53,121 nt of DNA from NCBI GenBank assembly GCA_944324795.1, contig CALUXR010000011.1, positions 1 through 53,121 on the forward strand. Direction: 5' to 3'. The translations under genes and the position numbers were made by a program. Of the stretch, positions 18,278 through 31,481 are shown piece by piece. The notes beneath the pieces are model-generated. The model saw only the letters and a program-made list of their open reading frames with translations, did no database searches and was not told where the DNA came from. The stretch comes from an uncultured Acholeplasmatales bacterium (GTDB lineage Bacteria; Bacillota_I; Bacilli_A; Acholeplasmatales; Anaeroplasmataceae). How positions within the stretch are numbered: the first letter of the stretch is position 1; every line of letters starts with the position of its first letter.

Positions 18278-20254
18278 ATGAAATATTTATATAAAGAAGA
18301 TTTTAGTGATTTTTCTATAACAGAATTTCCTTATGACCATGACCATAGTGCGCTTGGTGAATATCATACTTTTGAACTAGATGGTTATAAAGGTAATTTT
18401 TATGACCCTATTAGCCTACATCAATATCGAAGTAAAGGTGGTAATTGGCTTATTACAAGTGATGGAATTAAAAATTATATGGAACAAAATAGGGCTGATG
18501 AAGCAAGTGGAGCATTTATTAATGTTTATACTTTATTAATGTTAAAAAATAAAATATATGCCCCGTATGTAATAGATACTAAATTAGTTTTATTTAACCT
18601 TTCTAAAGGGGCTGGAATAACTTTCTTATATCATACATCTAGAAATCTATATGCATTATTATTTAAAGATAAAGAAATAAGTTTAATAAAAAGAGAAGAT
18701 GAAAACTTTATAACTATAAATAAAATAACTTATGATGTTTTACCATTAAAAGAATATGAAATTAAAATTGAAGTACATAAAAATGAAGTTTTAATATATT
18801 TAAATAAAGAATTTTTATTTAAAGCAAATATTGAATTTAGAATTGGATTAGTCGGCTTAATGGCTAAGGATTGTACAAGATATTATTATTTAAATGTGTC
18901 TTTAACAGACAAATATTATAATATACATAAAACACTACTTAATTTAGAAAATGAAAAATTAAAAAATAAACAAGCTCAATATGTAGGTTTAAAATGTATT
19001 AAAAAAATTAATTTAGGTGATTTTGGTTCAGGTAGACAATTAAGGATAGCTAGATATAATAATAAAGTATATTTTTTATTGGCTCAAAATCAAAAAAGAG
19101 TTATGCGCGATAGTTTCGCAAGATTATCATGTTTAACTTGTTTTGATATAGATGGCAATATATTATGGCAAAAAGGTAAAGCATGTAATGATTTTGATCA
19201 TACTATGATTAGTTGTGACCTACCTTTTCAAGTTACTGATTTCAATAATGATAATAAATTAGAAGTAATTTATAGCATGGATTTTAAAATATATGTTGTA
19301 GATTTACTTACAGGTAAAGTTTTAAAAGAAGGATTACCACCTATAATTTATAACGATCCACTTGTTTTAAATGAACCATTTTATTATTTAAATTTAGATG
19401 GACTAAGAGTAGCTGATTTTAGAGGACAAGGTTATCAAGGTGATTTAGTAGTTAAAGATAGATATCAAAACGTTTATGCATTAGATGATAATTTTAAGAT
19501 AATGTGGCGTTATCATCATAAAAATACTGGCCATTTTCCATTTATTTATGATATTAATAATGATGGTTATGATGAAATGTTAGTCGGTTATGATTTGGTT
19601 AGTCATGATGGTAAAGTTTTGTGGTCTTTACCTTATAATAGCGATCATACAGATGAGATTATTTATGGCCCACTTACAGATGATAATAAACGTTATTTTA
19701 TTCTAGCATCTGGTAATGAAGGTATGAATATTGCAACTATTGATGGTAAAATATATAAACATAATGAAATAGGTCACGCTCAAAGGATAAGCCTTGCAAA
19801 ATATAATGATAATATAGAAGGATATCAAATTATAACAACAGCCTTTTGGGGAAGTCCTGGTATAACAAGGTGTTATGACAAAGATGCTAATGTAATAGCT
19901 GAAAAAGAATTTATTACTAACGGTAATCTAGTTTCACCAGTATTATATGATGGCATTAATATATTATGTTTATTAAATGCTAGTCCTGAAGGTGGATTAA
20001 TGGATAGTGATCTTGATATAGTTGTCAAATTTCCAAATGACAATCATCCTTATTTATGCAGTGAAGTATTTGATATTGACGCTGACGGAATTGATGAAAT
20101 AATTTGTTGGGACCAAAAAGAAATGTGGATTTATAAGGCTGAAAGATATGTTAAAAGTGTTAATAAGTATGAAAAATATCCAGATAATGCATTTAGTAAT
20201 TATAGAGGAGAATATTTAATATTAAAAAAGGAAAATAAAAATGGAAAAAACTAA
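18278..20254 (+). CDS. ConA-like plus FG-GAP beta-propeller protein, possible pectin-active
   Basis: 658 residues with no signal peptide. Residues about 1-210 look like a concanavalin-type jelly roll of the DUF1080/LamG sort. About 215-645 is a beta-propeller with calcium-type FG-GAP loops at DFNNDNKLE (321), DINNDGYDE (425) and DIDADGIDE (599). FG-GAP propellers form the catalytic body of rhamnogalacturonan lyases of family PL11, but this protein is different in layout and I cannot point to PL11 catalytic residues. It overlaps the downstream GH28 gene by 14 bases, which ties it to pectin breakdown; binding or lyase activity on rhamnogalacturonan oligosaccharides is inference. CGAGGTA lies upstream; an ATG at 18272 is out of frame. 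Confidence 0.7.
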   Translation: MKYLYKEDFSDFSITEFPYDHDHSALGEYHTFELDGYKGNFYDPISLHQYRSKGGNWLITSDGIKNYMEQNRADEASGAFINVYTLLMLKNKIYAPYVIDTKLVLFNLSKGAGITFLYHTSRNLYALLFKDKEISLIKREDENFITINKITYDVLPLKEYEIKIEVHKNEVLIYLNKEFLFKANIEFRIGLVGLMAKDCTRYYYLNVSLTDKYYNIHKTLLNLENEKLKNKQAQYVGLKCIKKINLGDFGSGRQLRIARYNNKVYFLLAQNQKRVMRDSFARLSCLTCFDIDGNILWQKGKACNDFDHTMISCDLPFQVTDFNNDNKLEVIYSMDFKIYVVDLLTGKVLKEGLPPIIYNDPLVLNEPFYYLNLDGLRVADFRGQGYQGDLVVKDRYQNVYALDDNFKIMWRYHHKNTGHFPFIYDINNDGYDEMLVGYDLVSHDGKVLWSLPYNSDHTDEIIYGPLTDDNKRYFILASGNEGMNIATIDGKIYKHNEIGHAQRISLAKYNDNIEGYQIITTAFWGSPGITRCYDKDANVIAEKEFITNGNLVSPVLYDGINILCLLNASPEGGLMDSDLDIVVKFPNDNHPYLCSEVFDIDADGIDEIICWDQKEMWIYKAERYVKSVNKYEKYPDNAFSNYRGEYLILKKENKNGKN

Positions 20255-21572
20255 TTTTAAAGATTATAAAGTTATAATTGATTATAAAATCGATAAAGAA
20301 AAAGCTATTCAAAAAGCTATTGATAAATGTTTTAATAAAGGTGGAGGATATGTAATCATCCCTAAAGGAATATATATATCTAAACCAATTCAAATTAAAT
20401 CAAATGTATGTTTAAAATTAAAAAAAGGATCACTTGTAATATTTAAAAAAATTAAAGAATGGTATCCATTAATTTTAACTGAATATGAAGGGGTTAAAAG
20501 AATCAGAACGGTTTCTCCTATTAGTGCCTATGAAGCAAATAATATAGGGATTATTGGTGAAGGAATATTAGATGGCGATGGCTTTAATTGGCGACCTTTA
20601 AAAAAGTTTAAAGTAACTGATAAATTCTTTAATAATGTATGTTTAAAAAAAGAAAAAGATACAATCATTCCGACAAATGAAGGAGGAATATGGTATCCTA
20701 CAAAATCAAGTTTTGAACTAGCAAAAGCTGGTGATGAACCACAACCTACGGAAGAAAATTTAGAAAAATATAAAGATAATTATGATTATTTCAGACCTGT
20801 TTTTGTATCAATTGTAAAATGTGAAAAAGTATTATTAGATGGGACAACCTTTAGAAATAGTCCTGCTTGGAATATTCATCCTTTATATACTAATAATTTA
20901 ATTATTAAAAATTGCCATATTATGAATGAAGCTTATGCTCAAAATGGCGATGGAATGGATATAGAATCATGCCAAAATGTATTAATTAAAAATAATATTA
21001 TAAGTGTTGGTGATGATGGTATTTGTTTAAAGTCTGGTAAAAATAGAGAAGCAAGATTAACACCAATCCCGACAAAAAATGTTGTAATAAAAGGAAATAT
21101 TGTTTATAATGCACATGGAGGAATTGTCTTTGGCAGTGAAATGTCAAGAGGCATAAAAGATGTATATTGTAAAAATAATACATTTATTGGCACTGATATT
21201 GGTCTTCGTTTTAAAACGCAAATTGGTCGTGGCGGTGTTGTTTGTGATATCGTTATTGAAGATACTTATATGCATGATATTTCAGGTGAAGCTATTATTT
21301 TAACATGTGGGTATGAATTATATAGAATGGCTAATGAATCAAGAGATATTGTTAGCGATATTTTACCTGATGACATTCCTGAATTTACAAATATAAAAAT
21401 AACTAATCTTCATTGTGATGGAGCTAAAATAGGAATTAGTATGAATGGTTTAGAAGAAAAGCCTATAAATCATATATATTTTAAAGATATTTATATTAAA
21501 GCAAACGAAAAAATAAAAGAAATTAATACAAAAGATATATATATGGATAATGTAAACATTATCACTGAATAA
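20241..21572 (+). CDS. GH28 family glycoside hydrolase (polygalacturonase-like)
   Basis: 443 residues, no signal peptide. The beta-helix has all GH28 landmarks: NGDGMD with Asp237 and Asp240 (Gly replaces the usual Thr), GDD with Asp258/Asp259, AHGG with His292 and RFK with Arg323/Lys325. Without an FN3 module and with long inserts around 110-190, it resembles cytoplasmic exo-acting enzymes such as Thermotoga TM0437 or rhamnogalacturonan hydrolases. Substrate could be oligogalacturonate or rhamnogalacturonan fragments; coupling to the propeller gene favours the latter weakly. ATG 20241 follows AAAAAGGA and overlaps the upstream gene. Confidence 0.9.
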   Translation: MEKTNFKDYKVIIDYKIDKEKAIQKAIDKCFNKGGGYVIIPKGIYISKPIQIKSNVCLKLKKGSLVIFKKIKEWYPLILTEYEGVKRIRTVSPISAYEANNIGIIGEGILDGDGFNWRPLKKFKVTDKFFNNVCLKKEKDTIIPTNEGGIWYPTKSSFELAKAGDEPQPTEENLEKYKDNYDYFRPVFVSIVKCEKVLLDGTTFRNSPAWNIHPLYTNNLIIKNCHIMNEAYAQNGDGMDIESCQNVLIKNNIISVGDDGICLKSGKNREARLTPIPTKNVVIKGNIVYNAHGGIVFGSEMSRGIKDVYCKNNTFIGTDIGLRFKTQIGRGGVVCDIVIEDTYMHDISGEAIILTCGYELYRMANESRDIVSDILPDDIPEFTNIKITNLHCDGAKIGISMNGLEEKPINHIYFKDIYIKANEKIKEINTKDIYMDNVNIITE

Positions 21573-23855: not shown

Positions 23856-23930
23856 TGGCAGGGGTAGTAGGATTCGAACCCACACTAAAGGTTTTGGAGA
23901 CCCGCGTGCTACCATTGACACCATACCCCT
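23856..23930 (-). tRNA. tRNA-Trp (anticodon CCA)
   Basis: 75-base cloverleaf on the minus strand. Acceptor AGGGGTA / TACCCCT, anticodon loop CTCCAAA with CCA at 23895-23897, T-arm GTGGGTTCGAATCCTAC, discriminator G and encoded CCA at 23856-23858. The anticodon stem has one imperfect end pair. It reads UGG only, in line with TGA being a stop in this genome. Confidence 0.95.
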
Positions 23931-24105: not shown

Positions 24106-27100
24106 ATGAATTTATTAGCTAATATATTTAAGCTCAGCGATAGTATGCAACAACTTATTTTATGGGCTCCTACAATACTTTTTATTTTAATTATAGTTCT
24201 ATGGACTATTAGAGGAATTATGAAAGGTTTTAGGAAATCAATGATTAATTTAATTACTATGATTTTATCTATTGCCTTATGTGCTGTTTTATTTATATTT
24301 TTGATACGCAATGATGGCGCTATTATGCATTCACTTGGTAAAGGTTTGTTGGGGAATGTTAATAATGAAATCATTGACACTATTTTTAGACAAAATGACA
24401 ATTTCTTAGAAGGTTTAAAAGAAGTATTACTAAATTATATTGCAGATACTAATAATGGTCTTGCTAATGTGGCTATAGAAATGTACTCTCAAATTGAACC
24501 ACTTGCTATAATTATTTTACGTTTAATTGCATTTGCATTATGTATACCATGTTATTTTGTATTTAAATTTATTTTTTGGATAATATATTGTATCTTCTTT
24601 AGAGAAGGTTCTTATAAAGCAAGAACTTTAAGAAATAACAAAAAATATAGCAAAGCAAGATTAGGTGGCGGTGTTATTGGTCTTGTCCGCGGTGGAATCA
24701 TTGGCACTTTAATTGTTGGTTTTCTTGGTACTATAGCTTATGTTGGTACTGCTGGACGTAAGCCGAATGAAAGTGTTAGTTTTAAAGATGAGACAATTGG
24801 TGGTATATATGATTGGAATACTTGTCTTAGAGCCTTTGGTGATACAGGTATTTTAAAAATATTTAATCAAATGAGTGGTGATAATGCTCCATTTTATTTA
24901 TTCTTTGCTAATGCGATTGCTCAAGCAAAATATAATGAAAATGGTGATAAAGTTTATTTAACCGATGAACTTAGTGCAATCACTGGTATAGCTCAAGACT
25001 TAGTAGATGTTCTTGGTATTTATGCCGGAGAAAATATTTCTACAAATGGTGATGCTAATCAACAAATGGAAATTATTTCTGATTTGTTAGAATCAGATGT
25101 TAAATTAAATTATAATGGCAAAGAATTAACTTTTGAAGAAGCTTTAATTGAGGTAGTAGAACGTTATAAAGGTACTGAATATAGTAAAAATTTCTTAAAA
25201 GTTTCTGTTGGTACTGTTTTAAATGCAATGGATGAAATAGTTCCTAATAATGTTTATGCCGAAACTTTAAGTACTATGTTTACAGATGATGGTTCAGGCA
25301 ATTATTTAAGTCCTTATGATTTAGTTACTTTTGATGATTGTAAGACAATGTTAAAAGGTGTAATTCATTCCGCTAGTGAAATATTAGATTCTGTTGCCTA
25401 TATGAATGAAAATAAAAATAATACTTTAGGTATTACTAATAGATTTTTAAAAGTAGTATCACCAATTCATGATTCAATTTTAGATTTATCTATTTATACA
25501 GAATTTAATGAAGATAGTATTGTTAATGGTGAAGAAATTGTTGCTAATAAGAAAATAAAGTTAAATAATTCAATTAGTAAGGGTGTAGATTATTATTTCA
25601 CTACTACAGGTAAAGAAGTTAATGAAGATGGTGAAGAAGTAATTAAATATACTAATCCTTATAAAGATGAAGATATAAATTGGTTAGATGATTTTGATGA
25701 TATATTATATGCAGTTGATGATGCTGTAGTAGTATCAACTGCTTTAGAAACTGAAATGCCATTAGCTAATAATGATATGCGTTTAGCCCTAACAAATATT
25801 ATGCAAGATGATTATGTTGATGCTACAAACGTAAATACATCTTATGATAATTTAGTTGATAAAATGGCTAATGTAAAATCAGTCTGCATTTTATTTGAAT
25901 CTGATTTTATGTATGAATCATATTATGATAAATTTACAACAGATTTAGTAAATAGTTTAAATAAAGCAGAAGAAAAGGTAGACATTAATATTCCACGTGA
26001 TATTGTTTGGTCTGATACAATGGAAGGAAATGTTCAAAAACCTGGTGAATTTAGAGTATTATTTGAAACTTTAAGAGAACTTGTAAAACGTGGTGTTCTT
26101 GTTGATATAGATTTCAATAATGTTAATATAAAAGCTTTAAATAAAACATTTACAATTTTAGAAAATGATTATGATGAAGATGAAACAGTTCTAGAATATA
26201 TGTTCAATTCTAAATTGATGTATTATGTGACAAGTTTAATTTTATCTAATATGAAAAATGAAAATTTAGAAGTGTTAGTACCTACTAAAGATACATATTT
26301 AAATCAAGGAATATCATTAATTAAAAAAGAAGAAGTTGTTAATTTAATATCTAGTTTTAATCCTATACTTGAAGAAATGTTAAATGAAGGTATTGAAGAT
26401 TTTAATCAAGTAAGTGATGATATTAGTAAAGTTTTAAATATTTTTAGCAAGGAAGATATTCAAGATAACATTTTAGCATCTGATATTTTAACTGCTACAA
26501 CATCTAGTATGATTGTTAGCTCAACAAAGAAAAATGAAGAATTAAATGATGTATTAGTTATCCCTAATCATTTAACTTATGTTGAAGATGAAGAAACTAA
26601 CCAAATAATTATTGAAGGCTGGATTGGTAATGATGGGGAAATGGCTAAATTATTACATACTTTAACCTTAAAAAATAGTGATGATAGTAAGGTTTTAGAT
26701 ATAGATAAATTAATGGATCAAGACCCTTATTATATTAAAAATTTAACAGGTATTGATAGACCAAATTATGATGATTTAGTTGCCTCTGAAGTAATACATT
26801 ATAGTTTTACTAATGTTTTAACTAATATGTCTACAGCTGAATTTACAATAGTTATTCCTCATGATTCATATGATAGTAATATTACAGATGGTAAAGTAAT
26901 TGAAAAGGATGAATTATATAATACTTTACAAGCTTCAAATGTAATTATTTATGTAGATGAAAAAGAAAATAAATTAGATTATGATTTAGATAATGTCCCA
27001 AAAAATAAAGAAATTATTTTAAAGTCTGATATTTTCCATGCTACTTTAATTTCTACAATTGTTGATGTAACAAAAGATGAAGAAAAAGGTGACTTAATAA

Positions 27101-29943
27101 GTTTACCAAAAGAATATAAAGAATTAAATTATGATAGTACAAGTCCTGATTATGTCTTTAATCAAACATTTATAACAATTAATTGGGTAGAAAATCAAGA
27201 AATTAATTATATTTTAGAATCTGTGGAGGCATTAGAACTTAAATTAAATGATTTAGTTGATGGTAATGTTAATAAAGATGAATTACTTGATAAAGTCTTA
27301 TTATTAAATGATGATATGCCAAATACAGAAGTAAAGAAAGCTAATGTTGTTTGTTCTTCAAAAGTCATATCTTTAACTATGACTAATAATTTAAAAAATA
27401 ATGAAGATATTAAAGAATATATCAATGTTCCTGAAACTGCATATGATGATATAAATGTTGATGATAAATATATTAAAGAATCTGAATGGATTAATATGGT
27501 CGATGGTTTAGAATATTCATTTGAAGTTGACGGCGATAGTGAAAAAAGTGTTAAAGAACAATTAGAAGATTATAATACACTAGTTTCTAATGTCTTTAAA
27601 CCTAGCATTATTGATGATAATGAATATAATTATGAATCTAAGAAAGAAATTTTATTAACATCTTATATTTTAGAATATAGTTTAGTTATAAATATATATG
27701 ATAATTTAGAAGAAATGACTAATTCAGATGATTTAACTTTAATAATTCCAACATATTTAAATATAGATGGAAAATATAGTGAATGGTTATCTATAAGAGA
27801 TAATGATGATATTAAAGAATATCAAGAATTAGGAAACGTTTTAGATGTATTTGATACTACAGGTCTTGGTAAAGCTTATGCAGATCCTGATTTTAATGAT
27901 AAGGCTGCCGAAATGGTAAGTGTTAATGAACTTATTATTAATAATAATGATTATAATGAAGATGTTTTAATTGAAGAAAATAAAAATGAAAAATTAGCTA
28001 AACAAGAAAGTATTAATAATAGTGTAGTTATGAAAGCTACAACTTTAAATACAATCTTACAAACTAATGCTGTGAATATTCCAAATATTTATAATGAAAA
28101 TAATATTTTAGGTTTAACAGAGAATATGTATGATAGTATTAATACACCTAATGCGATAAAAGAAAAATATCAAGATTTAGCTATTAAAGAAGATGTTAGT
28201 AATATTTTTGAAGGTTTAAATGAATTAAAATTAAATGTTTCAAAAGAAGAACCAAATAAAATTAATATTGATTCTGATACTATATTATTATTAAATGATA
28301 ATTCTGATATTAAGGAAGAAAATATAGTAAAAGCTGAAATAATTAATAAATCAAAAGTTTTAGGCTTAACATTATCTAATAAGGCTAAAGAGGCTACAAA
28401 TTTAGATGAATTACCAATTAAATCATATGAAGAAGAACTTGGTGATAAATATATTACTAATACTGAATGGGATAATTTAGTAAATGCTATTGAAGATGAT
28501 AATAATGGTTTAGGCATTAAAGAAGATGTAGAAGCTACCTTTGCAAATCCTCAAAGTGTTGTTAAAACATTATTAGGTGAGAAAACAGATTATCCTGAAG
28601 ATGATGATGCTTATATTAATAAACGTAATGGTGTATTAAATAGTTATATTTTTGAAGAAGTAATAATTAAAAACATTAAAGAAAGTTTAGAAACTGAAAA
28701 TGATGATAATTCAGTGGTATTACCAGGAGACGTTAGCTGGTATAAAGATGATGAGACTATAAATAGACCAAAGAGTGAAGTTAAAGTCTTATTAAATGTA
28801 TTTAAAATTTTAGGGCTTGGTGATTTAGCAGAAGATGTAGATTATGCTAATTATATTAGTTCTAATTTATTAGCAGGAAATATTATAGTTTTAGCTAGTG
28901 ATGATTCTAGTGAAGAAGAACATAAAAAAGCTTTACAAAATGAAATGTTACAAAGTTTCATTTTAGAAGCTACAATGATTAATAATGTTTATAATATAAA
29001 TTCATTATCTAAACCAAACGCTTTAAATGAATTAAATAATGGTGATATTTTAGCTAATACATCATGGTATCAAAATAATGAATTAGAAAATTTATTTAAT
29101 GTTACAAAATTACTTGGTTTAACTTCTAATGAAGAAGATAAGAGTATTATTAACTTTAATATTGATAATATTTTAAATAATCTAGTTGCAAGAGATGAAA
29201 ATAAGCCAATTAATACTCTAGCAAATAGTTCTATTGCTTATTTAACTATTTCAAATCGAGTATTAGAAACTGTTTTAGATGAAGAGAGTAGTCTTGATTT
29301 ATATATGCCTTATAATAATATAGGAACATTAAGAAATTATAGTGATATTGCAGTTATAGAAAATGAATTACAAAATTTAATTAATGATATTAATTATTTA
29401 GGCATTGAATCAATTACAAATAAAACTACAAATATACATGTTCCAAGTGATGATGTTTTAGATAATCAAGAATTATTTAATTCATCAACAATGCGTCTAA
29501 CAATAAGTGCTCGTATTATTAATGAAACTATTAAATCATCTGATAATTTATATTATATTCCAAATACTAGTTTCCAAGATGAAGTTACTACAACAACAGT
29601 AATTTCAAATGGTTATATAGAAAGTGCTGATTCATTTAATATGTTTAGTCCAAATGAATTAAAGAACTTCATTAGAGCAGTCAATGCCTTTAATTCAGAT
29701 GAATTTACATTTAATATTGAAAATCTTGATGATTTAAAAGAAATAGAACCATCTATATTAGATAGTAATATAGCTTATAGTATTATTTCTAAACAATTAG
29801 ATAAATTTAGTGATGCAATCACTAATATGGGTATAAACAAAATTTATAAAACTGTATATAATTTAGAAATTAATTCATATCAAAGTTTAAGTCAAGAAGT
29901 TTATCAAAAAGAAGATATTAAAACATTAATGAATAATAATTAA
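24106..29943 (+). CDS. Giant CvpA-like membrane protein with repeat ectodomain
   Basis: 1945 residues. The first ~215 contain four membrane segments (about 18-35, 46-67, 133-165, 187-213). They have the look of the CvpA family: an RGIMKGF turn after helix 1 and a glycine-rich GGVIGLVRGGIIG helix 4. The remaining ~1700 residues are acidic, Asn/Asp/Glu-rich and without further helices. From about residue 600 a degenerate unit of roughly 80-120 residues recurs: a Ser-x-Ile/Leu helix start (SKLMYYVTSLI, SDIFHATLISTI, SKVISLTMTNNL, SYILEYSLVINI, SSIAYLTISNRV, SSTMRLTISARI), then Val/Ile-Pro, then Trp/Tyr, then Glu-Leu...Leu-Gly. At least twelve copies are visible. GAAAGGG precedes ATG 24106. The tail is presumably outside the membrane; function unknown (surface scaffold or envelope assembly are guesses). 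Confidence 0.8.
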   Translation: MNLLANIFKLSDSMQQLILWAPTILFILIIVLWTIRGIMKGFRKSMINLITMILSIALCAVLFIFLIRNDGAIMHSLGKGLLGNVNNEIIDTIFRQNDNFLEGLKEVLLNYIADTNNGLANVAIEMYSQIEPLAIIILRLIAFALCIPCYFVFKFIFWIIYCIFFREGSYKARTLRNNKKYSKARLGGGVIGLVRGGIIGTLIVGFLGTIAYVGTAGRKPNESVSFKDETIGGIYDWNTCLRAFGDTGILKIFNQMSGDNAPFYLFFANAIAQAKYNENGDKVYLTDELSAITGIAQDLVDVLGIYAGENISTNGDANQQMEIISDLLESDVKLNYNGKELTFEEALIEVVERYKGTEYSKNFLKVSVGTVLNAMDEIVPNNVYAETLSTMFTDDGSGNYLSPYDLVTFDDCKTMLKGVIHSASEILDSVAYMNENKNNTLGITNRFLKVVSPIHDSILDLSIYTEFNEDSIVNGEEIVANKKIKLNNSISKGVDYYFTTTGKEVNEDGEEVIKYTNPYKDEDINWLDDFDDILYAVDDAVVVSTALETEMPLANNDMRLALTNIMQDDYVDATNVNTSYDNLVDKMANVKSVCILFESDFMYESYYDKFTTDLVNSLNKAEEKVDINIPRDIVWSDTMEGNVQKPGEFRVLFETLRELVKRGVLVDIDFNNVNIKALNKTFTILENDYDEDETVLEYMFNSKLMYYVTSLILSNMKNENLEVLVPTKDTYLNQGISLIKKEEVVNLISSFNPILEEMLNEGIEDFNQVSDDISKVLNIFSKEDIQDNILASDILTATTSSMIVSSTKKNEELNDVLVIPNHLTYVEDEETNQIIIEGWIGNDGEMAKLLHTLTLKNSDDSKVLDIDKLMDQDPYYIKNLTGIDRPNYDDLVASEVIHYSFTNVLTNMSTAEFTIVIPHDSYDSNITDGKVIEKDELYNTLQASNVIIYVDEKENKLDYDLDNVPKNKEIILKSDIFHATLISTIVDVTKDEEKGDLISLPKEYKELNYDSTSPDYVFNQTFITINWVENQEINYILESVEALELKLNDLVDGNVNKDELLDKVLLLNDDMPNTEVKKANVVCSSKVISLTMTNNLKNNEDIKEYINVPETAYDDINVDDKYIKESEWINMVDGLEYSFEVDGDSEKSVKEQLEDYNTLVSNVFKPSIIDDNEYNYESKKEILLTSYILEYSLVINIYDNLEEMTNSDDLTLIIPTYLNIDGKYSEWLSIRDNDDIKEYQELGNVLDVFDTTGLGKAYADPDFNDKAAEMVSVNELIINNNDYNEDVLIEENKNEKLAKQESINNSVVMKATTLNTILQTNAVNIPNIYNENNILGLTENMYDSINTPNAIKEKYQDLAIKEDVSNIFEGLNELKLNVSKEEPNKINIDSDTILLLNDNSDIKEENIVKAEIINKSKVLGLTLSNKAKEATNLDELPIKSYEEELGDKYITNTEWDNLVNAIEDDNNGLGIKEDVEATFANPQSVVKTLLGEKTDYPEDDDAYINKRNGVLNSYIFEEVIIKNIKESLETENDDNSVVLPGDVSWYKDDETINRPKSEVKVLLNVFKILGLGDLAEDVDYANYISSNLLAGNIIVLASDDSSEEEHKKALQNEMLQSFILEATMINNVYNINSLSKPNALNELNNGDILANTSWYQNNELENLFNVTKLLGLTSNEEDKSIINFNIDNILNNLVARDENKPINTLANSSIAYLTISNRVLETVLDEESSLDLYMPYNNIGTLRNYSDIAVIENELQNLINDINYLGIESITNKTTNIHVPSDDVLDNQELFNSSTMRLTISARIINETIKSSDNLYYIPNTSFQDEVTTTTVISNGYIESADSFNMFSPNELKNFIRAVNAFNSDEFTFNIENLDDLKEIEPSILDSNIAYSIISKQLDKFSDAITNMGINKIYKTVYNLEINSYQSLSQEVYQKEDIKTLMNNN

Positions 29944-30028: not shown

Positions 30029-30105
30029 TGGGGCGTATAACAGGATTCGAACCTGCGCGTGCTGGAGCCACAATCCAGAGTGTTGACCACTTCACCATAT
30101 ACGCC
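30029..30105 (-). tRNA. tRNA-His (anticodon GUG)
   Basis: 77 bases including an encoded G-1 (30105) opposite discriminator C73 (30032), the identity pair of tRNA-His. Acceptor GCGTATA / TATACGC, anticodon stem-loop CTGGA-TTGTGGC-TCCAG, encoded CCA at 30029-30031. Confidence 0.96.
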
Positions 30106-30153: not shown

Positions 30154-30272
30154 GTGTTTTTTGCAAAATATTGAAAAAGAGATAAGAAAAAGAAGATTAA
30201 AACAAAATATAATTGATTTTTAGGGGAAAAATAAGTAAAATATTGATTAGTTTATTATGTGAGGTTTTAATT

Positions 30273-31481
30273 GTGATTAAGAAGATATTATTTTTTGGTA
30301 TAGCTATTATTTTAGGCTTTATGGTACTTATAATGAGTTATTCTGGTTTTCAAATGTCAGATGTACAAGCTAAAATTACAGAATATATGAATAATGGTGA
30401 ATATGATAATTTAGCTAAATGTTTTTTACCATATTATGATTCAAATAGTATTAAACCTATTAGTGAAAATGATCATTTTACTTTAGTAGGTTTAGAATCA
30501 ATTCATGGTGTTTCAGCAACTGTTACTGTTGATGGTGAAGAACAAACTGCTAGTAAATATGTAGCTAGTTACACATTCTTTATTAAAGACTTTAATAACT
30601 TTGATTTTGAAGGTATTTCTGGTGAAGATACATACCATAACTATACACGTTTAGTTTTTAAAAATGGTGATTTAAGTTTTGATTATTATTTTAATGTACC
30701 TGACACAGCTACTACTAGTGATACTGAAGGTGTAGAAAGATATTATACTCAATATGCTCAAAGTATGGATTTTGTGGAAATTGATATTCCATTATCTGAT
30801 ATTGAAGATGATTTAAATGGTGAAATTAAAAGTATAGAGGTATATGATAGTAAGGCTATTCCTAGTCAAAAAGAACCAGTTGAAATTATTAATTTAGAAA
30901 ATCCGCTAACTACTAATTCTGAATTTTTCACATTAGCTAATGATCTTGTAAGTAATTGGGACAAATATTTAAATGATTTAGATTCTGAAGCATTTAATAA
31001 TTTCTTTGACCCAGAAGATGGTGAAGGTTGGATTGATAGATATAATGCTAATCCTGGTTTTTCAAGAGGTATTAATTCTTATGAAGACTTAATTGGTAGT
31101 AGTGCTATTGTTAAAACTGTTATTGTAATGATTGTATATTTAGCGGTATGTGTTTTACTTGGTTTCTTATTATTACGTAATAAAAATAAATTACCTAAAC
31201 CTTATTTAAGAGATAAATATCAAAAACAAATGGTAAGTGCAAATTCTATTAAACAAGAAGTTAAAGAAGCTCCTGTTTCTGTTGGCTCAATCAATAATGA
31301 TAAAGAAAATGAAGCAGATAATGGTAATAAAGAAATTAATACAGCAAATATAGAAGAAGTTAATAATAAAGTAGAAAATAAAACAGAAGTTATTAATGAA
31401 GATGAAAATAATAAAGAAACAGATATTGTTACGAAAGAAGATTCTAACGGTAGTAATGATATAATAGATGAAAAGAAATAG
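30273..31481 (+). CDS. Membrane protein with extracytoplasmic domain and acidic tail, unknown
   Basis: 402 residues from GTG 30273, which has GTGAGG at 30259-30264; a longer in-frame form from 30213 lacks a ribosome-binding site. A membrane segment at about 3-22 is followed by a ~250-residue domain outside the membrane. This contains beta-rich stretches such as DHFTLVGLESIHGVSATV and a second half ending IGSSAIVKT. A second membrane helix lies at about 280-300 (VIVMIVYLAVCVLLGFLLL). The last ~100 residues are an Asn/Glu/Lys-rich cytoplasmic tail of low complexity. No family recognised. It ends in a terminator and precedes an ECF transporter component. Confidence 0.7.
   Translation: MIKKILFFGIAIILGFMVLIMSYSGFQMSDVQAKITEYMNNGEYDNLAKCFLPYYDSNSIKPISENDHFTLVGLESIHGVSATVTVDGEEQTASKYVASYTFFIKDFNNFDFEGISGEDTYHNYTRLVFKNGDLSFDYYFNVPDTATTSDTEGVERYYTQYAQSMDFVEIDIPLSDIEDDLNGEIKSIEVYDSKAIPSQKEPVEIINLENPLTTNSEFFTLANDLVSNWDKYLNDLDSEAFNNFFDPEDGEGWIDRYNANPGFSRGINSYEDLIGSSAIVKTVIVMIVYLAVCVLLGFLLLRNKNKLPKPYLRDKYQKQMVSANSIKQEVKEAPVSVGSINNDKENEADNGNKEINTANIEEVNNKVENKTEVINEDENNKETDIVTKEDSNGSNDIIDEKK

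Follow-up and report, generated by a model that had tools for sequence, protein, structure and literature searches.

A giant protein with a CvpA-like membrane head and a tail of degenerate repeats in Acholeplasmatales and other Bacilli

MarP-type proteins combine a CvpA-like membrane domain with an extracytoplasmic protease. CvpA itself (PF02674) is a protein of 160-250 aa with a four-helix membrane domain, a G-x3-G motif after TM1 and an R-L-x-G-x3-G-x2-RG motif before TM4. EHEC, V. cholerae and V. parahaemolyticus need it to resist deoxycholate, and it has been linked to colicin V export (PMC6705877). CvpA is widespread, resistance to bile salts in enteric pathogens requires it, and its mechanism is still missing. 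The Giant1-5 proteins of Apilactobacillus kunkeei are surface proteins of very great size whose repeats are degenerate and in some cases about 100 aa long; they carry a signal peptide and C-terminal DUF5776 domains, Giant1-4 also have a beta-solenoid at the N-terminus, and the helical rods of the group were described as a new type (PMC12863079). The protein analyzed here resembles each of these in part. It has the four TM helices and both glycine motifs of the CvpA family, but it is 1945 aa long and the giants form a separate group in a tree. It shares with MarP-type proteins a CvpA-like head bearing a putatively extracytoplasmic domain, but that tail has no trypsin-like protease or other Pfam domain and is instead predicted to be a long repeat solenoid. 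Great size and degenerate repeats are common to this protein and the A. kunkeei giants, which differ from it in that it has four TM helices and no DUF5776 match in Pfam. No published description of giant CvpA-headed proteins was found in the searchable literature, outside which most subscription journals lie, and the Tenericutes and Izemoplasma papers searched made no mention of CvpA. The head type and the large repeat surface protein are already known kinds, while that literature describes neither their combination nor the repeat nor its spread; the suggestion of a preliminary description of this DNA that the gene represents an undescribed system is plausible.

The gene lies in a contig of an uncultured Acholeplasmatales bacterium (CALUXR010000011.1), whose 53,121 nucleotides were analyzed as a whole and are called the window. 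An open reading frame at 24106-29943 on the plus strand encodes the 1945 aa protein and starts with an ATG that is preceded, at a distance of about 10 nt, by the purine-rich stretch AAAGGG. Full-length conserved relatives in the genus share 40-52% identity over the gene, which excludes a chance open reading frame. The best-matching named records, at 40-52% identity over the gene, are metagenome bins labeled "uncultured Acholeplasmatales bacterium", and our reading of the bin names suggests a gut origin. The host genome (1.70 Mb in 51 contigs, 99.5% complete) gives 5.8 kb, or 0.34%, to this gene and also encodes an ordinary CvpA on another contig. No close relatives were found in viral contigs and there was no sign of a phage origin. 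The reading frame, its relatives and the repeat HMMs described below establish that a CvpA-like head and a giant repeat tail are joined on one protein as first proposed.

The CvpA-like head (aa 1-217, 24106-24756) was delimited using hydropathy, a structural model and profiles, and contains RG-x3-GFRKS after TM1 and RLGGGxxGLxRG at TM4. Hydropathy and the model placed TM helix 1 at aa 17-35 (24154-24210), TM helix 2 at aa 49-67 (24250-24306), TM helix 3 at aa 135-153 (24508-24564) and TM helix 4 at aa 186-204 (24661-24717), all on the plus strand. The corresponding helices in the AlphaFold2 model were residues 2-40, 42-82, 127-164 and 185-215, and the earlier four-helix estimate lay close to both sets. 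By hydropathy almost every member of the giant family has four TM helices, and G37, G41, G188 and G192 were invariant in 21 diverse giant heads.

To relate the head to known families it was compared with Pfam Colicin_V (PF02674) and with ordinary CvpA. The head scored 13.6 bits against a gathering threshold of 29.3 bits, and the top full-head score among the giants was 24.6 bits. As this is below the cut-off we call the head CvpA-like and not a CvpA. Colicin_V was nevertheless matched at E <= 0.1 by 14 of 32 family heads, far above any other family, and covered the entire head in relatives from family f5 (E 2.8e-5 and 3.1e-4). Alignment of the giant-head profile to ordinary CvpA of the same order with hhalign gave a probability of 90.5 and an E of 1.3e-6 over 175 columns. 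The CvpA-like assignment was therefore borne out at the profile level while falling below the Pfam cut-off on its own, and these sequence comparisons support the head as a distant CvpA relative. In a tree of 41 giant heads and 10 ordinary CvpA the two groups split cleanly (support 100/99); because the tree is unrooted it allows, rather than proves, a single origin of the giants. Ordinary CvpA co-occurred with giants in the same genomes. Colicin_V also weakly matched open frames about 450 aa long, at G000:C6:17351-17542 and at comparable loci in G002, G006 and G057, a possible further CvpA-like group.

The tail begins with a juxtamembrane helical domain (aa 218-594, 24757-25887), defined by alignment and model, that has conserved G248, P262, E288, F343 and W526 and forms part of the solenoid model. 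The repeat units follow, also on the plus strand. A weaker unit 0 (aa 595-692, 25888-26181) was detected with the cross-relative HMM at 19.9 bits. Twelve units were found with both an iterated HMM and the cross-relative HMM. Units 1 (aa 693-782, 26182-26451) and 2 (aa 783-886, 26452-26763) were also recovered in a held-out test and seen in the model. The held-out test also recovered units 3 (aa 887-965, 26764-27000), 4 (aa 966-1078, 27001-27339), 5 (aa 1079-1176, 27340-27633), 6 (aa 1177-1297, 27634-27996), 7 (aa 1298-1410, 27997-28335), 8 (aa 1411-1507, 28336-28626) and 9 (aa 1508-1607, 28627-28926). Units 10 (aa 1608-1701, 28927-29208), 11 (aa 1702-1787, 29209-29466) and 12 (aa 1788-1874, 29467-29727) make up the three-unit model. 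A truncated terminal unit (aa ~1888-1945, 29767-29940) gave weak HMM matches in some relatives (about 2-13 bits). The iterated HMM started its units at aa 700, 790, 893, 972, 1084, 1184, 1305, 1415, 1511, 1615, 1707 and 1791, within a few residues of the twelve positions listed in the preliminary description. That list was correct for these twelve and incomplete, as it missed the weaker unit at aa ~595 and the terminal fragment at ~1888-1945.

The repeat is highly divergent, with 12-13 copies of about 80-110 residues each. In the held-out test an HMM built from half of the units found most of the others, each weakly (at most 18.7 bits, with the best shuffle at 8.5). As these matches were weak yet above the shuffles, the repeat is real within this single protein but very degenerate. 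Comparison of relatives, in which the HMM detected 435 units in 37 proteins, made the repeat unambiguous at the sequence level. The consensus is NLIEAVLDTILNSKILRATISNKILNSNNLSIVIPTDLYNENYITKGELKNLLDALKELGITDIDNNIDINSIDSSDLVN and follows the pattern S-x-I-L..TIS..I / IVIP / ..YI...E-L..LL.AL..LG, in which the only fixed positions are a Ser (90%), a Glu (82%), a Pro (62%) and the hydrophobic core. No tandem repeats of the unit period were present in the DNA and the repetition exists at the protein level only. Unit triplets were aligned as non-overlapping sets. One of 70 unit triplets matched EF-hand models (E 4e-4); the match was not shared by other triplets and we therefore make no claim of calcium binding.

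AlphaFold2 was used to predict the structure of the tail. The model of aa 1-880 was a confident all-helical solenoid (pLDDT 84.5), and a model of three units was also confident (pLDDT 85, pTM 0.83). In these models the units are predicted to be helix / beta-hairpin / helix elements stacked into an alpha-solenoid. Pfam searches over the 1945 aa returned nothing but the sub-threshold Colicin_V match, and the tail matched no Pfam or NCBIfam family. The HEAT, ARM and TPR models did not match the whole protein and were not among the 25 families listed for the 70 unit triplets at E <= 0.1. Foldseek searches of the PDB gave best E values of 0.05 for the aa 1-880 model and 1.5 for the three-unit model, and VIA-align gave Z scores of at most 5.5 for aa 1-880 and none of at least 2 for the triplet. 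Karyopherins headed the Foldseek list and, like other HEAT/ARM alpha-solenoids, have a stacked helical repeat in common with the tail; the giant's units differ in carrying a beta-hairpin and in having no Pfam HEAT/ARM match, and the likeness is unsupported because E was 0.05 at best with a TM-score of about 0.1. A PDB sequence match to the designed repeat protein O43_129 (E 2e-4) contained no stretch that passes alone and was taken as composition. Foldseek, VIA-align and sequence profiles thus gave no convincing PDB relative of the tail models. The sequence and fold searches of Pfam, NCBIfam and the PDB agree with the original statement that the tail matches no known repeat family, which does not prove a new fold.

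To determine how widely the giant occurs, genomes of the order and class were searched with the head profile. Of 160 genomes of the order, 108 had matches, representing 24 of 28 genera, and by hand count 97 of the 160 carried the head in an open frame of 1000 aa or more. Nearly all members of genus g26, which have very reduced genomes (0.6-0.9 Mb) and are probably phytoplasmas, lacked a giant head. Across the class Bacilli 158 of 395 evenly sampled genomes matched at E <= 0.001, a count in which weak matches, matches on short frames and the order's own genomes are included. Many further families of the class have giants, and the examples fetched ranged from 843 to 6049 aa. The repeat was found outside the order in f12, f16, f19, f23, f24 and one of two f21 giants, with up to 25 units per giant and a best score of 46.8 bits against a shuffle maximum of 6.1. 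It was not convincing by HMM in the giants of f9, f11, f26 and L184 of f21; as some CvpA-headed giants have no detectable repeat, the repeat may not be under common selection. Recurring across a large part of the Bacilli, the giant looks like a widespread, undescribed cell-surface building block. Two CvpA-headed giants of unequal size were found in tandem in family f24, as in L169 (3650-12475 and 12582-15449, with the repeat confirmed in both) and in G259, G265, G282, G318, G388, G400, G423 and G477. Mycoplasmatales-like genomes using code 4 had the head on proteins of about 400 aa (E 1e-9 to 1e-14; L188 2568, L189 2339 and L190 on the minus strand, 1452 of the complement), which match the same head profile as the giant but have an ectodomain of just ~230 aa without the repeat. 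Mycoplasma annotations of "CvpA family proteins" may refer to these. In L189 the gene directly precedes genes resembling topoisomerase IV subunits.

The gene is flanked by a tRNA-Trp upstream (23856-23930) and a tRNA-His downstream (30029-30104), both on the minus strand, and the order tRNA-Trp, giant, tRNA-His is kept in several genera. The gene had been called free-standing between tRNA genes; the tRNA flanks were confirmed, but a conserved neighbor lies at 30213-31481 on the plus strand. This protein has an N-terminal TM helix, an ectodomain of about 250 aa, a second TM helix and an acidic cytoplasmic tail, and its true start is likely the GTG at 30273. It lies directly 3' of the giant in ten genomes. 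In family f2 (L095, L097) the two genes adjoin in a convergent arrangement, indicating that the adjacency survived rearrangement. Some members lack this adjacency, and genus g6 mostly has the neighbor elsewhere in the genome. After iteration the neighbor-protein profile also seemed to reach genes beside ordinary CvpA (L065-L091); we attributed this to profile drift and dropped the link because the uniterated profile showed only the TM helix and acidic tail (E 1e-5 or worse). A second arrangement was seen in L053, L047, L048 and L100, where a conserved pair of genes lies upstream of the giant: one encodes a two-TM protein (about 236 aa), the other a protein with BspA-type leucine-rich repeats (PF13306 in L053) that is about 405 aa long, or 805 aa in L047. 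GerA and GerAC germination genes were found just upstream of the giant in L046 (11122-12501 and 10127-11125), L044, L050 and L038, suggesting that parts of the family probably form spores.

Anaeroplasmataceae and their relatives include both walled and wall-less members (PMC10868615), and the host was assessed for peptidoglycan synthesis. No PBP transpeptidase was recognizable in its genome and the Mur ligases gave a single weak match, so the host is probably peptidoglycan-deficient. Among class genomes outside the order, PBP transpeptidase was absent from 27 of 40 with a giant and from 12 of 40 in which no giant was detected (Fisher p 0.0016, in samples that are phylogenetically clustered). 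Walled lineages with giants included f9, f12, f21 and several genera of f1. As PBP-bearing relatives carry giants too, the giant was rejected as a wall substitute.

Our preferred reading, to which we give a probability of about 0.5, is that the protein is a solenoid outside the cytoplasm that serves as a scaffold or tether and is held by an anchor derived from CvpA. The orientation of the tail was judged from charge. Head loop 1 has 4 K/R and 0 D/E and loop 3 has 9 K/R and 1 D/E, while the outer loop 2 has 4 K/R and 9 D/E and the tail 137 K/R and 319 D/E. The positive loops 1 and 3 would therefore be cytoplasmic and the acidic tail of roughly 1740 residues would lie outside the membrane. The four-helix head would anchor the giant and the units would stack outside the membrane into an alpha-solenoid, forming an extended rod that could hold or space partners at the cell surface. 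A rod fits the repeat: all that is fixed in each unit is a single Ser, Pro and Glu besides the hydrophobic positions, the pattern of a structural stack, and the tail appears to have no conserved catalytic set. No LPXTG or SLH domain was seen (the C-terminus reads ...KEDIKTLMNNN; Pfam). The two-TM ectodomain neighbor would be the most likely specific partner. Because the host has no recognizable PBP transpeptidase, the rod may extend from a membrane that is bare or almost so. The giants bear on how wall-less bacteria organize such a membrane, and the repeat is a conserved and apparently unsolved target for structural biology. As a CvpA-like module has been kept with a very big outside part across many families, its fixed residues and the partner offer a handle on head function. 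More tentatively, and less likely than not, the CvpA-derived module, a new solenoid fold acting as an extracytoplasmic skeleton and the two-TM partner may constitute a class-wide surface system that pre-dates peptidoglycan loss in this part of the Bacilli and persisted in many lineages after that loss.

Several other explanations were weighed against a scaffold or tether. The tip or groove of the rod might bind the host, fiber or other cells, with the head merely an anchor. In favor of this, many adhesins are built as a surface rod of repeats tethered to the membrane, the closest records with a name come from uncultured Acholeplasmatales MAGs, and in other bacteria aggregation involves surface proteins of very great size (PMC12863079). 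We consider an adhesin unlikely. Such proteins tend to be variable and to pass from one lineage to another, whereas the giant stays between the tRNA genes in several genera, and its relatives are class-wide and include complete genomes of species that are larger and may be free-living. Alternatively the head could work as CvpA does, in envelope homeostasis, bile-salt resistance or export, with the solenoid as an outer gate or cargo platform. The deoxycholate and colicin V phenotypes of CvpA are in keeping with this and the four invariant glycines exceed the needs of an inert anchor; however, the host has retained its ordinary CvpA, transport genes are not regularly found next to the giant and the mechanism of CvpA is itself unknown, making this role likewise unlikely. 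That the head is not homologous to CvpA, and that four hydrophobic helices with glycine motifs arose by convergence, is very unlikely: its own score is below the Pfam threshold and DUF4400 and other TM models weakly match some members, but the share of heads matching Colicin_V and the hhalign comparison argue for homology. An inverted topology with the tail as a cytoplasmic scaffold would agree with the general knowledge that helical solenoids are commonest inside cells and is extremely unlikely given the strong positive charge of loops 1 and 3 and the strongly acidic tail.

Elsewhere in the window, at 18278-21572, an FG-GAP-like protein of 658 aa, possibly related to rhamnogalacturonan lyases, is encoded beside a GH28 pectinase-like protein of 443 aa, and the pair likely functions in plant-pectin degradation.
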